Origin: Rhodospirillales bacterium
GTDB taxonomy: Bacteria; Pseudomonadota; Alphaproteobacteria; Rhodospirillales; Magnetospirillaceae
Length of the DNA stretch: 41,112 bases
Direction of reading: 5' to 3'
NCBI GenBank assembly: GCA_015654615.1
Contig: JAATGN010000379.1
Location: 1-41,112, forward strand
Shown: positions 13,240-18,692 of the stretch, piece by piece
Layout: each line of letters opens with the position of its first letter
How positions within the stretch are numbered: the first letter of the stretch is position 1
Position numbers and translations under genes: made by a program
The notes under the pieces: generated by a model
What the model was told of the DNA's origin: nothing
Seen by the model: the letters and a program-made list of their open reading frames with translations, nothing else
The model's database searches: none

Positions 13240-15135
13240 TCAGTCCTTCCAGCCGAAATACCGCGCGTAGTCGCCCACCTGGCATTCCACCATCTTGCGG
13301 CCGGGAAACAAGCGGCAACCATGGCGTTCCGCCTCGGACAGCAAACGCGTCACTTCGGGCAGGAGAAGGGTGTCGGCGACCCAGGCGTCCTTGCGCAATT
13401 CTGTGGGATCGAAAGGCAGAGCGTCATCCGGTTCCGTGCCGCTGGGGGTGGCGTTGACCGCGATATCGACGACACGCAGATCCTGCGGTCGCCCACTCCG
13501 CACCTGCAGACCGCCAAACGCCGTGGAAAGATCCGCGACCAGTTTTCCGGCGCGGTCGGACGACAGATCGTCGATATAAAGGCTCTTCACCCCCGCCTCG
13601 GCCAAGGCGTAGGCGATGGCCCGGCCCGCGCTGCCGGCGCCGACCACCCAAACGCAGGAATCCTCGACGCGTCCGCCCAGACTGCGCAACCCATTGACGA
13701 AACCGGGACCGTCGACGATGTCGCCGGTCAATCGGCCGTCGGGATCCCGTTTCACCACATTCACGGCGCCGATCCGCCGTGCTCTCTCGCTGATCTCATC
13801 CAGGAACGGCACGATGCTGACCTTGTGAGGCAGGGCGACAACGAAACCAACCAGGTTCTCGACCGTCCGGGCGCCTGCAACGAAAGACTGCAGGGACTCC
13901 GGCGCGATGTGGAAGGGAATGCAGGCCGTATTCAATCCGTTCAAGGCAAGCCAGTGGCCGACGATTTCCGGCATCCGCAGATGCGACGTCGGGTCGCCCA
14001 CCACACCCAGCAACGTGGTGCTGCCGTCGGCCGAGGCCTCCGAGACATCGGGCAGGATGGGCGGCGCGGGAGACGCCGTCGGCAGGGTCACCACGCCCTT
14101 TTGCGCCATCAGGCGCGCCGTCACGTCGTGACGGCCGAAACCGCGGTGATGCTTGCGTTCGACGACTTCGAAAAACACCCGACCGTTCTTCGGCTGGACA
14201 TAGGCATGCAGGAATTGTCCGCCGCCTTCGGTATCGATCATCACCTTGTAACGGGAAAGTTTTGCGACGAGATCGGCGCTATAGCCTTCATTGATCAAGC
14301 TATCGTAGTAACTGAATTGGATCGGAAGAATATTGAGCCCACGCTGAGCCGCTTTATCCAGATAAGAAAAAATATCGTCCGTCGAGAATGCCAGATGCTG
14401 CACCCCTTCCCCGAAATTTTCGCGGAGGAATTTTTCGCAATCCGTCCCATCGTCGACCGGCTCGTTCATGCAAAATTGAATTTTTCGCTGAGGATCCGCC
14501 ACGACGGTGCTCAGAACATACCCCTTGGGATCGACGATGCTATTGTGTTCTATGACGCGGAATCCGAAGCATCTGCTGTAAAAGCGGACCCACTTCTTGG
14601 TTTCGCCCTGGCGAACGGATTGGGAGATATGATCGATCGCCCGCAAGTCGTCGGCCCAGGCCGGCGACGAGGTCGGCAGGAAATCGACGTCATAGACGGG
14701 CTTTGCGGCATCCAGGTCGTCGATGAGATAAATCAGCCGGCCCGATATCGTCCGAATGGCCGGGATCGACAATTCGCCCGGCCCGATCGCGCCACGGTAG
14801 TCCTGGGCCCCCTGGCGCACGGCGTCATCATGGAGCCTTGCCGCGTCGGCGACGCGAAAGGCCAGGGCGCAGACGGACGTTCCATGCACGGTGCCGAAAG
14901 AATGGGCGAATGACGACGGCTCGCGGTTGACGATGAGATTGATCTTGCCTTGCCGGAACAGCAGAACGTCCTTCGATCGGTGCTGCGCGATATGCGTAAA
15001 GCCGAGCGCCTCGAAATCCTTCTGCAAATTCGCGAAATCCGCGGCGCTGGATGCCGTGAACTCGACAAATTCGATCCCGGAAATATTGCAAGGCTCATCA
15101 AGGTAATCATAACCTTTGTTTTCGACGCCGAGCAT
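13240..15135 (-). CDS. Fusion of HPPD-like VOC dioxygenase region and shikimate-dehydrogenase-like domain
   Basis: The 631-residue protein has two parts. Residues about 18-345 are a two-module VOC fold like 4-hydroxyphenylpyruvate dioxygenase (GIEFVEFTA, QHRSKDVLLFRQGKINLIVN, AIDHISQSV, GEGVQHLAFSTDDI, GRVFFEVVERK). They include the full 2-His-1-Glu iron triad, His169, His247 and Glu323. The usual HPPD C-terminal gating helix (GNFxALFESIE) is replaced by GFGRHDVTARLMAQ, as in the HPPD-like half of QuiC-type dehydroshikimate dehydratases. Residues about 374-631 are a shikimate/quinate dehydrogenase fold: ALPHK with Lys438, GDIVDGPGF with Asp475, and nucleotide loop GAGSAGRA (499-506). The two catalytic residues of that family are present. 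No TIM-barrel dehydratase domain is fused. A hydroaromatic-acid oxidation role is inferred from the domains, the neighbouring MFS transporter and the IclR regulator; the product of the VOC half is unknown. Start ATG is preceded by GGAG. Confidence 0.88.
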   Translation of the reverse strand: MLGVENKGYDYLDEPCNISGIEFVEFTASSAADFANLQKDFEALGFTHIAQHRSKDVLLFRQGKINLIVNREPSSFAHSFGTVHGTSVCALAFRVADAARLHDDAVRQGAQDYRGAIGPGELSIPAIRTISGRLIYLIDDLDAAKPVYDVDFLPTSSPAWADDLRAIDHISQSVRQGETKKWVRFYSRCFGFRVIEHNSIVDPKGYVLSTVVADPQRKIQFCMNEPVDDGTDCEKFLRENFGEGVQHLAFSTDDIFSYLDKAAQRGLNILPIQFSYYDSLINEGYSADLVAKLSRYKVMIDTEGGGQFLHAYVQPKNGRVFFEVVERKHHRGFGRHDVTARLMAQKGVVTLPTASPAPPILPDVSEASADGSTTLLGVVGDPTSHLRMPEIVGHWLALNGLNTACIPFHIAPESLQSFVAGARTVENLVGFVVALPHKVSIVPFLDEISERARRIGAVNVVKRDPDGRLTGDIVDGPGFVNGLRSLGGRVEDSCVWVVGAGSAGRAIAYALAEAGVKSLYIDDLSSDRAGKLVADLSTAFGGLQVRSGRPQDLRVVDIAVNATPSGTEPDDALPFDPTELRKDAWVADTLLLPEVTRLLSEAERHGCRLFPGRKMVECQVGDYARYFGWKD

Positions 15136-15196: not shown

Positions 15197-16054
15197 TCAC
15201 GCCTTCACCCGGCGCCCCATTTTGACCGGGGCCGCGCCACCGTCCGGATGGCGATTGGCGGCGGCGATGGCCCTTTTGAGAAACGGCGAACCGGCGCATG
15301 CCGCGGCGAGATCGCTGGTCGCCGCGACGACGGCCGGCCCCAAAAGCTCCAGACGATCATCGGTCAGGCGAAGATGCGGGCCGGCGACGGAAATCACTCC
15401 GATGACCTGCCCGGATAGCGGATGCCTGACCGGCGCCGCCACGGCGGCGATGCCCAGATGGACGGCTTCGCTCACGATGCTGAACCCGCGAACGCGCGCT
15501 TCATGCAGCTGTTTGAGCAGATCCTGCACCGTCCGGGGGACATTCGGCCCGGAGTCGCCGCGCGGCACGAATCCGCCCTGCTTGCTGACCAGTTCCAACG
15601 CCTGCTCTTCGCTGAGGCAGGACAGCCAGGCGTGACCCGACGCGGTGGAAAGCAGCTCGACGACGCCCCCCATATCGGGATCGAAGCGCAAGCCCGAGGA
15701 CGACCCTTGCGCCTTCGCCACCCAGACCAGCTGATCGCCGTCGATCACGCTCAATCTGGCCACCTCGCCGGAAATCTTGGCGAGATCGTCGAGAATGGGC
15801 TGGGAGATATCCACCACTCCCATGCCGGAAAGCTGCGAAAGCCCCAGGGAACACAGCTTCAGCGTCAGGGTATATTCGCCGTATTCCTTCTGCTGACGCA
15901 CATATCCGTGCCGGATGAGTTCGACCAGCAATCTGTGCGTGGCGCTGCGGGGAATATTCAGTTTTTCGGCGATTTCATGCATCGGCAAGCCCGAAGCGTT
16001 CGCCGCAAGGAGTTCAAGAATGGCCAGCCCACGGTCAAGATTTCCAGTGGTCAC
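15197..16054 (-). CDS. IclR-family transcriptional regulator
   Basis: The 285-residue regulator has an N-terminal winged helix (about 5-65: LDRGLAILELLAANASGLPM, HEIAEKLNIPRSATHRLLVEL) and a C-terminal GAF-like effector domain (about 80-255). This is the IclR layout typical of control of aromatic and hydroaromatic catabolism (PcaR, PobR, KdgR type). I chose a GTG start at 16054, preceded by GGAG 9 bases upstream, because it puts the helix-turn-helix at the usual distance from the N-terminus. The frame is open back to an ATG at 16192, and a TTG at 16066 is also possible. It is upstream of the VOC-SDH gene (61-base gap, probably one unit) and divergent from the MFS gene, so it probably controls both. 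Confidence 0.9.
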   Translation of the reverse strand: MTTGNLDRGLAILELLAANASGLPMHEIAEKLNIPRSATHRLLVELIRHGYVRQQKEYGEYTLTLKLCSLGLSQLSGMGVVDISQPILDDLAKISGEVARLSVIDGDQLVWVAKAQGSSSGLRFDPDMGGVVELLSTASGHAWLSCLSEEQALELVSKQGGFVPRGDSGPNVPRTVQDLLKQLHEARVRGFSIVSEAVHLGIAAVAAPVRHPLSGQVIGVISVAGPHLRLTDDRLELLGPAVVAATSDLAAACAGSPFLKRAIAAANRHPDGGAAPVKMGRRVKA

Positions 16055-16868
16055 GTATTCGTACTCCAACTCGACATATGAAAAATCAGGCCCAAATAAT
16101 GGTCCTCTGCGGCGTGAGCCACAAGGCCCCGGTTCCGCTTCCCGCCAGGGGAAAGAGGGGGACGCGACTCGCCCGGTTTTTCGCCCCGCCACCCGAGGAG
16201 CGATATAACATACGGAAATATCTAAAATATTTTCGAAATCCAGACCATATGGCGGGATCGCTCAAAAAATCATGCGCGCCATGTACTACGTGTTCACTTT
16301 TGGAATATAATTTCATTATTGCTTAAATTCATGAGTTCCCAGGTGGTCCCGCGCCATCTCCGCGTGGCGCGAAAGACGAACAAATAAGCCGATTTTCCCG
16401 CTTTTTGCCCATATTAAAAGCATACATGGCTATGGAAGCCGCCGAATAGTACTCCCTTCATGTCTAAGTCGGGTCAATATCGCATTGACATAAATTGACC
16501 ATATGGTCCAATCTCGATTCAAGAAACGAAAAAAGTTGCATCGGAGGGTGCGAGCCGAGATAAGGAATCCAGCCCACCGGCCATCCGTGGGCGAACTCCT
16601 GCCGCATCCTCCCCCGACGAGGCGAGGAGAGCGAAAGATCATCTCCTTGAAAAGGACGATTGTGCTGCTCGGCTCCTGAAACGGAGTTGCCGGCTCGACC
16701 ACGCCGGGGGAAGGCAGCCGGCAGTCCGATCCACCATGACGGTCGAAAGAATTTCCGCTCCATGAGCGATAACGCCCAACGCGGAAGATCCGGGTTCTCG
16801 GCCTCGATGAATCGAGAGCCGCCAAAACAAAAAACGTCCTCGCAAAGCGATTAAGGAAGGAAACCTCG
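16055..16868. promoter_or_regulatory. Divergent AT-rich control region of the catabolic island
   Basis: This is the longest gene-free interval, and the part at about 16200-16500 is visibly AT-richer than the rest of the window. GACCATATGG occurs at 16243-16252 and again, within the perfect 12-bp palindrome GACCATATGGTC, at 16497-16508. TGGAATATAATTTCA (16301-16315) resembles the IclR-type pattern TGGAAATnATTTCCA. A TTGACA at 16485-16490 is a good -35 for the MFS gene, but the -10 (CCAATC/CAATCT near 16508) is weak, and the 12-bp palindrome covers the spacer. That is the geometry expected for a regulated promoter. A 30-codon frame at 16762-16854 ends just before the MFS ribosome site; I do not call it a gene. 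Confidence 0.5.
16497..16508. promoter_or_regulatory. Candidate operator palindrome
   Basis: GACCATATGGTC is a perfect 12-bp palindrome directly downstream of a TTGACA -35 element. Its first 10 bases recur at 16243-16252 on the regulator side. It is a likely operator for the adjacent IclR-type protein, inferred from position and symmetry. Confidence 0.45.
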
Positions 16869-18389: not shown

Positions 18390-18692
18390 GTGATTCACGT
18401 ACTGGCGATCATCACCGCAAAGCCCGGCAAACGGGCCGAACTCCTTGAGAAATTCCATGGCAACATGCCCACGGTCCGCGCCGAAGCGGGTTGCATCGAA
18501 TATGGGCCCGCCGTGGACGCCGACGGTCTCGGCAGCGCGACATTCGGCCCCGATTCATTCGTGGTCATCGAGAAATGGGCGAGCCGGGAAGCACTGGCGG
18601 CCCACGCCAAGGCGCCGCACATGACGGCCTATGCCGCGACAACCCAGGACTTGGTCGCCAGCCGGGCCATCCACGTCCTGCAGCCCGCCTGA
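18390..18692 (+). CDS. Small ABM-fold protein, putative quinol monooxygenase-like
   Basis: The 100-residue protein has the antibiotic-biosynthesis-monooxygenase (ABM, dimeric alpha/beta barrel) fold of the YgiN type. Typical segments are IHVLAIITAKPGKRAELLEKF, RAEAGCIEYGP, DSFVVIEKWASREALAAHAKAPHM and the closing strand. Such proteins oxidise quinols or aromatics without a bound cofactor, or act as accessory proteins in aromatic pathways. It starts at GTG (GTGATTCACGTA) behind a purine-rich stretch. The frame, length and family match make that start reasonable. It lies 192 bases after the MFS gene on the same strand and ends convergent with folP, so it is the last gene of the catabolic island. 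Its substrate is unknown. Confidence 0.85.
   Translation: MIHVLAIITAKPGKRAELLEKFHGNMPTVRAEAGCIEYGPAVDADGLGSATFGPDSFVVIEKWASREALAAHAKAPHMTAYAATTQDLVASRAIHVLQPA

Follow-up and report, generated by a model that had tools for sequence, protein, structure and literature searches.

The window analysed here, the whole 41,112-nucleotide stretch of contig JAATGN010000379.1 from a Rhodospirillales bacterium (assembly GCA_015654615.1), encodes a protein in which a two-module VOC region resembling the C-terminal half of the dehydratase QuiC is joined to a domain of the shikimate dehydrogenase (SDH) family. This is a genuine gene, neither an assembly nor a frameshift artefact, and a natural fusion so far known from two Telmatospirillum genomes only. 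Two modules which, in the breakdown of plant acids, often come from adjacent genes are here joined in one protein; its parts are of known kinds, and the VOC–SDH combination did not turn up in the open-licence literature searched. The fusion is tentatively read, at not far short of an even chance, as a catabolic two-site enzyme which combines a RifI-type oxidation with a metal-dependent QuiC-type VOC step and serves a small cassette of neighbouring genes.

A fusion gene under purifying selection

The fusion occupies a single 631-residue frame with no internal stop. The first-pass annotation of this DNA had described the frame correctly, without its strand, which is minus. The parts of the gene are as follows; dN/dS is the ratio of non-synonymous to synonymous substitution rates and pLDDT the predicted local distance difference test score.

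13240-15135, minus strand: fusion gene, QuiC-like VOC half plus RifI-class SDH-like half, 631 residues (open reading frame, Pfam, NCBIfam, ortholog)
14101-15135, minus strand: VOC half, residues 1-345, two VOC modules (Pfam, alignment, Foldseek)
14032-14100, minus strand: linker, residues 346-368 (dN/dS 0.28; pLDDT below 50 in both AlphaFold2 models)
13243-14031, minus strand: SDH-family half, RifI class, residues 369-631 (Pfam, PDB match, tree)

Three Pfam models match above their cut-offs: Glyoxalase_5, the N-terminal module of 4-hydroxyphenylpyruvate dioxygenase (HPPD), at residues 13-152 (6e-45), Glyoxalase at residues 167-272 (1.7e-12) and Shikimate_dh_N at residues 378-461 (8.9e-19). Shikimate_DH matches residues 489-565 under its cut-off. 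The NCBIfam QuiC model NF042435 gives 243.6 bits over model positions 293-622, its C-terminal half only, against a cut-off of 1200, which is narrow, being reached in none of the 385 genomes of the class. Scores of 217.3 bits (cut-off 277) are obtained with the 4HPPD model TIGR01263, 121 bits (cut-off 200) with the aroE model TIGR00507 and 137 bits (cut-off 235) with PRK12549; several shikimate dehydrogenase models match, each under its cut-off. Since every NCBIfam score among the matches listed falls under its cut-off, the fusion is kin to the QuiC, HPPD and SDH families but is by curated cut-off a member of none. The fusion contains no TIM barrel, its frame beginning at the VOC half, and the genome's 12 matches to PF01261 (TIM barrel) are all on contigs other than that of the window. 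The unusual architecture proposed in the first-pass annotation, a two-module QuiC-like VOC region joined to an SDH-family domain in place of a TIM barrel, thus stands.

The same 631-residue fusion is encoded by Telmatospirillum siberiense (genome G003), with 85% identity over residues 1-631 and no gap, which excludes an artefact. A stop or frameshift between the halves, a possibility raised in the first-pass annotation, was looked for and none was found. Among 99 genomes searched as relatives, the full-length fusion is present only in the window's own genome (G000) and in G003; within the genus, G002 lacks it, and it was not found in G001, which carries an ordinary QuiC, or in G004, which gave no VOC match. 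A scan of GTDB with two peptide patterns, a method which detects close relatives only, returned one locus, in T. siberiense 26-4b1 (NZ_PIUM01000001.1). The window is thus from a different species, assigned to the same genus. With up to three candidates scored per genome, no further uninterrupted fusion was found among the matches listed for 385 genomes of the class (E <= 1e-40) or 398 genomes of the phylum (E <= 1e-68). Matches to nearly the whole query in G449, G550 and G518 are QuiC and SDH encoded as separate adjacent genes, with a stop between them.

Between the two fusions, dN/dS (Nei-Gojobori) is 0.047 for the VOC half, 0.28 for the linker (23 codons), 0.123 for the SDH half and 0.08 overall, the absolute values being rough since synonymous sites of the VOC half are near saturation (pS 0.64). 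For comparison, glmM and serA each give 0.083 in the same species pair, the IclR gene 0.099 and the MFS gene 0.058. Purifying selection acts on both halves, the VOC half being the more constrained, and the linker is under less constraint than either.

Lineage and residues of the two halves

The nearest solved relative of the VOC half is QuiC1 (PDB 5hmq, 203 bits), with HPPDs next; a Foldseek search with a moderate AlphaFold2 model also has 5hmq and HPPDs as its best matches among the 50 rows listed. In a 50-row tree (which omits the duplicate loci L002, L003, L008 and L021, the short fragment L016, and L047, which has no open reading frame spanning its stop) the VOC half pairs with a standalone VOC protein from G064, a genome of the same order (97/91). 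The pair is sister to the QuiC domains (100/98), inside a 100/100 clade apart from the HPPDs. Long branches were flagged in this tree, and the grouping with the G064 protein might reflect long-branch attraction. In trees rebuilt with each protein alone, both still fall between HPPDs and QuiC, and the QuiC clade that excludes them is supported at 100/99. Because it branches between HPPDs and the C-terminal domains of QuiC, the VOC half is, within the sampled diversity, not a QuiC that simply shed its TIM barrel. When the G064 protein was used to query 287 genomes of the order, its best non-self matches were the two fusions, at 48% and 46%, and a QuiC of G083 came next at 45%.

The metal triad of the VOC half is intact (His169, His247 and Glu323), and these residues, like Lys438 and Asp475 of the dehydrogenase half, lie where the first-pass annotation had placed them. 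In HPPD structures from plants and Pseudomonas, positions 232, 310, 312, 338 and 341 are associated with substrate binding. All 36 HPPD-type rows have Gln232, Gln310, Phe312 and Phe338, and 35 have Leu341, the remaining row being a fragment (PDB 1cjx) which stops short of that position. The fusion has Asp, His, Tyr, Val and Arg at the five positions, and the G064 protein Asp, His, Tyr, Ala and Arg. For comparison, 66 distinct QuiC domains were counted (70 sequences less four identical ones), taken from the best-scoring loci rather than by random draw. Position 338 is Ala, Val or Ser and position 341 Arg in 66/66 of them; Ser209 is found in 66/66, Asn224 in 63/66, Tyr312 in 65/66 and the His-His-Glu triad in 62/66. 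Tyr312, Val338 and Arg341 of the fusion are therefore QuiC-type residues, and the claim that a QuiC-like tail replaces the HPPD gating helix is confirmed by Val338 and Arg341, in contrast to Phe338 and Leu341 of HPPDs. Position 310 is Gln in 34 QuiC domains, His in 31 and Asn in one, so His310 does not discriminate the fusion from QuiC. Asp232 occurs in neither the HPPD-type nor the QuiC set. Since the triad is kept in the fusion, in the standalone G064 protein and in most QuiC domains, and since Ser209, Asn224, Tyr312 and Arg341 are conserved, the VOC half looks as though it keeps an active site.

AlphaFold2 run on the two fusion sequences gave a pLDDT of 37.7, which is unusable, and 60.1 once four IMG/VR relatives were added. 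In the improved model, the first VOC module scores about 74-82, the second about 40-80, the linker and the SDH substrate domain below 50, and the NAD-binding part about 77-94 (in 10-residue blocks). The Foldseek rows listed confirm the VOC fold alone, and neither pocket geometry nor domain arrangement.

The C-terminal half is, judged by its sequence, of the RifI class of the SDH family, and neither an AroE nor a quinate dehydrogenase. Its best solved relative is RifI2 (PDB 4k28), which scores 156.6 bits where the next reaches 117.8, and in a 24-row tree, from which the duplicates L002, L003, L004 and L021 are omitted, it falls in the eight-row RifI2 clade (100/100), apart from AroE and the quinate/shikimate-type enzymes. 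Within the clade it is nearest to proteins of G064 and G088 referred to as SDHa (80/84). Lys438, Asn459, Asp475 and Gln619 are retained, while Leu386, Met388, Val432, Ala434 and Val474 stand where shikimate-binding residues would be. Position 386 is Ser or Thr in all 16 rows outside the RifI clade and in none of the eight inside; position 388 is Ser or Thr in 16/16 outside, with Ser in 3/8 inside; and position 432, the Asn of the NVT motif, is Asn in 16/16 outside and 0/8 inside, the fusion having Val. These three positions correspond to Ser14, Ser16 and Asn59 of E. coli AroE, and 386 and 388 are those which hold the carboxylate of shikimate. The first-pass annotation had regarded the partner as a dehydrogenase which would make dehydroshikimate; its place in the RifI2 clade and the replacement of shikimate-binding residues by Leu386, Met388 and Val432 speak against this. 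RifI2 itself is reported to have weak activity on shikimate and trace activity on quinate. Asp522 and Asp523 at the cofactor site suggest a preference for NAD+ over NADP+.

Relatives of the G064 SDHa protein with 43-46% identity are found in sugar-acid clusters of Azospirillum brasilense, Rhizobium ruizarguesonis, Paracoccus denitrificans and R. leguminosarum, together with altronate-dehydratase-family, DHDPS-family and aldehyde dehydrogenase genes. Others occur in a different kind of cluster in Salipiger and in a Streptomyces cluster beside DAHP synthase and polyketide synthase. In view of these settings, shikimate or quinate is not the default substrate of the C-terminal half. The window's genome has a separate quinate-type SDH (on contig C233) and a separate AroE (C153).

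Gene neighbourhoods

The gene order around the fusion is ftsH-folP-[ABM, MFS, IclR, fusion]-glmM-thiD, in which glmM and thiD are named from their sequence. The bracketed genes form a small transporter-regulator-enzyme cassette set among house-keeping genes:

15197-16192, minus strand: IclR-family regulator, called start 16069 (Pfam IclR_C, HTH_IclR; gene caller)
16495-16511, strand not assigned: candidate operator, inverted repeat TTGACcatatgGTCCAA, in the IclR/MFS divergent region; in T. siberiense TTGACtgaataGTCCAA
16869-18197, plus strand: MFS transporter, TIGR00893 D-galactonate-transporter subfamily, divergent from IclR
18390-18692, plus strand: small ABM-domain (PF03992) protein, 3' of the MFS gene; T. 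siberiense copy 81% identical

The IclR gene shares the strand of the fusion and lies 61 bp upstream of it, and its T. siberiense copy is 89% identical over 271 residues. The MFS transporter is 73.5% identical to a paralog in a second locus of the genome and 58% identical to an MFS protein beside aroQ-SDH-QuiC1 in Sphingobium sp. V4. The ABM protein would belong to the cassette, judging by its position. T. siberiense has the same cassette with, in addition, genes for the alpha and beta subunits of a 2-oxoacid:acceptor oxidoreductase between IclR and the fusion (L021:6199-8744). This pair, which is absent from the window species, may hint at a 2-oxo acid product.

In the otherwise diverged IclR/MFS intergenic region, a promoter-like block (TCAATATCGCATTGACATAAATTGAC...GTCCAAT; window 16474-16514) is common to both species and holds the inverted repeat TTGAC-N6-GTCCAA, which could be the IclR operator. 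In a shuffle test 7/100 shuffles matched as often, which is not significant, and the hit is a single palindrome read on both strands. The exact 12-base palindrome core was found in two of 166 loci, both the window itself, and was not found in T. siberiense even at <=2 mismatches; the arms of the repeat are common to both species, but the core is not.

Elsewhere, a dehydrogenase-like match lies within about 1.5 kb in 26/58 QuiC loci and in 0/36 HPPD loci. By best match, 24 of these 26 dehydrogenases are quinate-type and two (G261 and G318) RifI-class; a further RifI-class neighbour, assigned by tree, overlaps QuiC by 4 bases in S. americanum. Given this recurrent neighbourhood, the fusion joins modules which were already associated. 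Adjacency of AroQ was discarded as a marker of QuiC loci, an AroQ-like match within about 1.5 kb being found in 15/58 QuiC loci and also in 8/36 of the HPPD-type controls. An IMG/VR 'viral' contig (L086:6031-7390), possibly host DNA, has an SDH gene and, after it, the beginning of a TIM barrel like that of QuiC.

Outside T. siberiense, the closest relatives found for both halves share one cluster, that of G064, which contains the standalone VOC (368 residues; 47% identical to the VOC half), a degenerate SDH, a TIM barrel, AroQ and the RifI-class SDHa (47% identical to the dehydrogenase half); intradiol dioxygenase genes lie about 10 kb away. The SDH gene directly 3' of the G064 VOC (L022:2901-3821) is in the order of the fusion and has Gln for the catalytic Lys and Leu for the Asp, so its product is probably inactive. 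Its open reading frame overlaps the end of the VOC gene by 4 bases, the called start being 5 bases beyond that end. G088 (L024) has SDHa, AroQ and TIM barrel in the order of G064, with surrounding genes matched by size rather than sequence, and gave no VOC match.

The second locus lies on C81 in T. siberiense (L057) and on two contigs, C233 (L063) and C144 (L062), in G000, the junction being assumed from the G003 arrangement. It comprises genes for the MFS paralog, a quinate-type SDH and a TIM barrel, together with chemoreceptor-like and acylating-aldehyde-dehydrogenase-like genes and one for a thiamine diphosphate (ThDP) enzyme, with an HMG-CoA-lyase-like gene in G003. The SDH scores 441 bits with NF009201 (cut-off 235) and shares 60-65% identity with the SDHs that adjoin QuiC in R. 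etli, Azospirillum and G449. Within the genus, the TIM barrel is present in G000 and G003 and was not found in G001 or G004, a distribution that matches that of the fusion in these genomes and is in keeping with a common pathway. In the G064 cluster, AroQ, SDHa and VOC stand together with relatives of this TIM barrel, aldehyde dehydrogenase, ThDP enzyme and lyase. A set of TIM barrel (AP_endonuc_2), SauS-like acylating aldehyde dehydrogenase, ThDP enzyme and SDH recurs across L062, L063, L057 and L022, with the HMG-CoA-lyase-like gene in L057 and L022.

It is possible, as the first-pass annotation suggested, that a dehydratase is encoded elsewhere. No QuiC was found in the window's genome, which is 95% complete, and the best candidate is the C144 TIM barrel, the best match to the QuiC TIM barrel in G000 (29% over 140 residues, 1.4e-7). 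The idea that it is simply the missing dehydratase is weakened by a His aligned with the metal-binding Gln and by relatives near QuiC itself in G518 and G550. These relatives (L077:7503-8300 and L078:16146-16970; 33-40% identical to the C144 protein or its G064 relative), which belong to two genomes outside the class, have complete QuiC-SDH-AroQ genes nearby, making this TIM family an unexplained companion of quinate clusters. Intradiol dioxygenase (PF00775) was not found in the 95%-complete G000 and is present in T. siberiense. The one LigB match in G000 is DOPA-dioxygenase-like, under that model's cut-off and beside copper genes. A protocatechuate route in G000 is therefore unsupported. In T. 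siberiense, contig C4 (L058 2848-5861, L059) carries intradiol dioxygenase genes as well as AroQ, a quinate-type SDH and a transporter for shikimate (NF007414, 763 bits, cut-off 538); the TIM search found no QuiC there.

Possible activities and comparison with known systems

As a catabolic two-site enzyme, the fusion would act on a cyclic polyol acid or sugar acid imported by the MFS transporter. The C-terminal half would oxidise one hydroxyl of this acid, preferably with NAD+, and the N-terminal half would bind Fe(II) or another divalent metal and act on a keto or enediol product of the same pathway, by an O2-dependent or metal-only step. The halves may be tethered because the intermediate is labile or needs to be handed over, and the dehydration step, if there is one, would be supplied by another locus. 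A more specific proposal, that the RifI half makes a keto compound which the VOC half cleaves or hydroxylates in an Fe(II)/O2-dependent reaction, is on the unlikely side. If true, it would give a catabolic route bypassing dehydroshikimate dehydratase and, as far as the available parts of the cited QuiC and QsuB papers go, the first activity for a QuiC-type HPPD-like domain. T. siberiense is a facultative anaerobe which grows at low oxygen (PMC5786683).

Several points weigh against a two-site catabolic enzyme. The dehydrogenase may have a substrate unrelated to quinate; no VOC is annotated within 7 kb of the SDHa relatives in sugar-acid clusters, where annotation is incomplete. The available parts of the cited QuiC and QsuB papers give no established activity of a QuiC-type VOC domain. 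Four of the 66 QuiC domains (L111, L114, L116 and L143) have Gln for the second metal His, the sole change seen in the triad, and full-length QsuB did not turn over protocatechuate (PMC7442255, in part). These last two points also favour the main rival, in which the VOC half is structural and the dehydrogenase half the sole enzyme, as does the finding that removal of the C-terminal domain leaves QsuB mostly monomeric (80%) but still active as a dehydratase (same source). The protocatechuate result is not decisive, since the assay mix stated there lists MgCl2 and no added iron. The VOC half is moreover the more constrained of the two (dN/dS 0.047 against 0.123), and its triad is intact in the fusion, in 62/66 QuiC domains and in a VOC gene that stands alone, with no TIM half. 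A purely structural role is on the whole the less likely reading. The occurrence of SDHa relatives (43-46%) in sugar-acid clusters and in the Streptomyces DAHP synthase/polyketide synthase cluster would suit two independent activities of one regulon, fused by chance and sharing neither substrate nor hand-over. This is somewhat less likely still; against it stands the recurrent QuiC-dehydrogenase neighbourhood (26/58 against 0/36), which includes the RifI-class neighbours of S. americanum, G261 and G318.

Much less plausible is a bifunctional quinate enzyme, in which dehydroshikimate, formed by a shikimate/quinate dehydrogenase half, is oxidised by the VOC half. The 58% MFS relative beside quinate genes and the quinate-type dehydrogenase of the second locus (441 bits, cut-off 235) are in keeping with it, but the C-terminal half has lost its shikimate-binding residues, separate quinate-type SDH (C233) and AroE (C153) genes are present in the genome, and the nearest solved relative, RifI2 (4k28), is reportedly weak on shikimate with only traces of activity on quinate. 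Least credible of all is a plain HPPD of tyrosine catabolism with an inactive dehydrogenase tail. The HPPD fold and triad, and 217 bits with TIGR01263 (though below the cut-off of 277), are compatible with such an enzyme, and it has been suggested that P. putida QuiC might convert 4-hydroxyphenylpyruvate to homogentisate (PMC8264583, in part). However, Gln232, Gln310, Phe312 and Phe338, each found in 36/36 HPPDs, are Asp, His, Tyr and Val in the fusion, a separate HPPD-like gene (C317) with Gln310, Phe312 and Phe338 exists in the genome, and the dehydrogenase half keeps its catalytic residues and has a dN/dS of 0.12.

In the available parts of the literature on QuiC and QsuB, the role of the HPPD-like half is called unknown (PMC7442255) and a structural role in the dehydratase has been proposed (PMC7442255, PMC9324987). 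Searches by title and beginning of abstract among open-licence papers returned no VOC-SDH fusion. The fusion and the G064 gene both provide a VOC domain of the QuiC lineage with an intact metal site and no dehydratase half, in one case tied to a dehydrogenase, and the role of the HPPD-like half of QuiC thereby becomes testable in one compact protein.

Compared with QuiC1 and QsuB (5hmq, NF042435), the VOC half resembles their C-terminal HPPD-like half, with the same triad, Tyr312 and Arg341 tail, but the fusion has a dehydrogenase instead of the TIM-barrel dehydratase and its VOC half lies outside the sampled QuiC clade. With HPPD (1cjx, TIGR01263) it shares the fold, metal triad, Ser209, Asn224 and Gln246, and differs at four substrate-pocket positions and in the C-terminal (GNF) gating segment. 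RifI2 (4k28) is of the same clade as the C-terminal half; its chain, in contrast, is a lone SDH domain of 269 residues and keeps the second Ser (Val/Ser at 386/388, against Leu/Met in the fusion). Relative to AroE and YdiB, the C-terminal half has the Lys-Asp catalytic pair but not the Ser/Thr pair or the NVT motif. The G064 cluster, finally, has a VOC gene followed by an SDH-family gene in the same order as the fusion, but as separate genes; the SDH directly after the G064 VOC lacks the Lys and Asp, and the dehydrogenase half of the fusion groups with SDHa at only 80/84.

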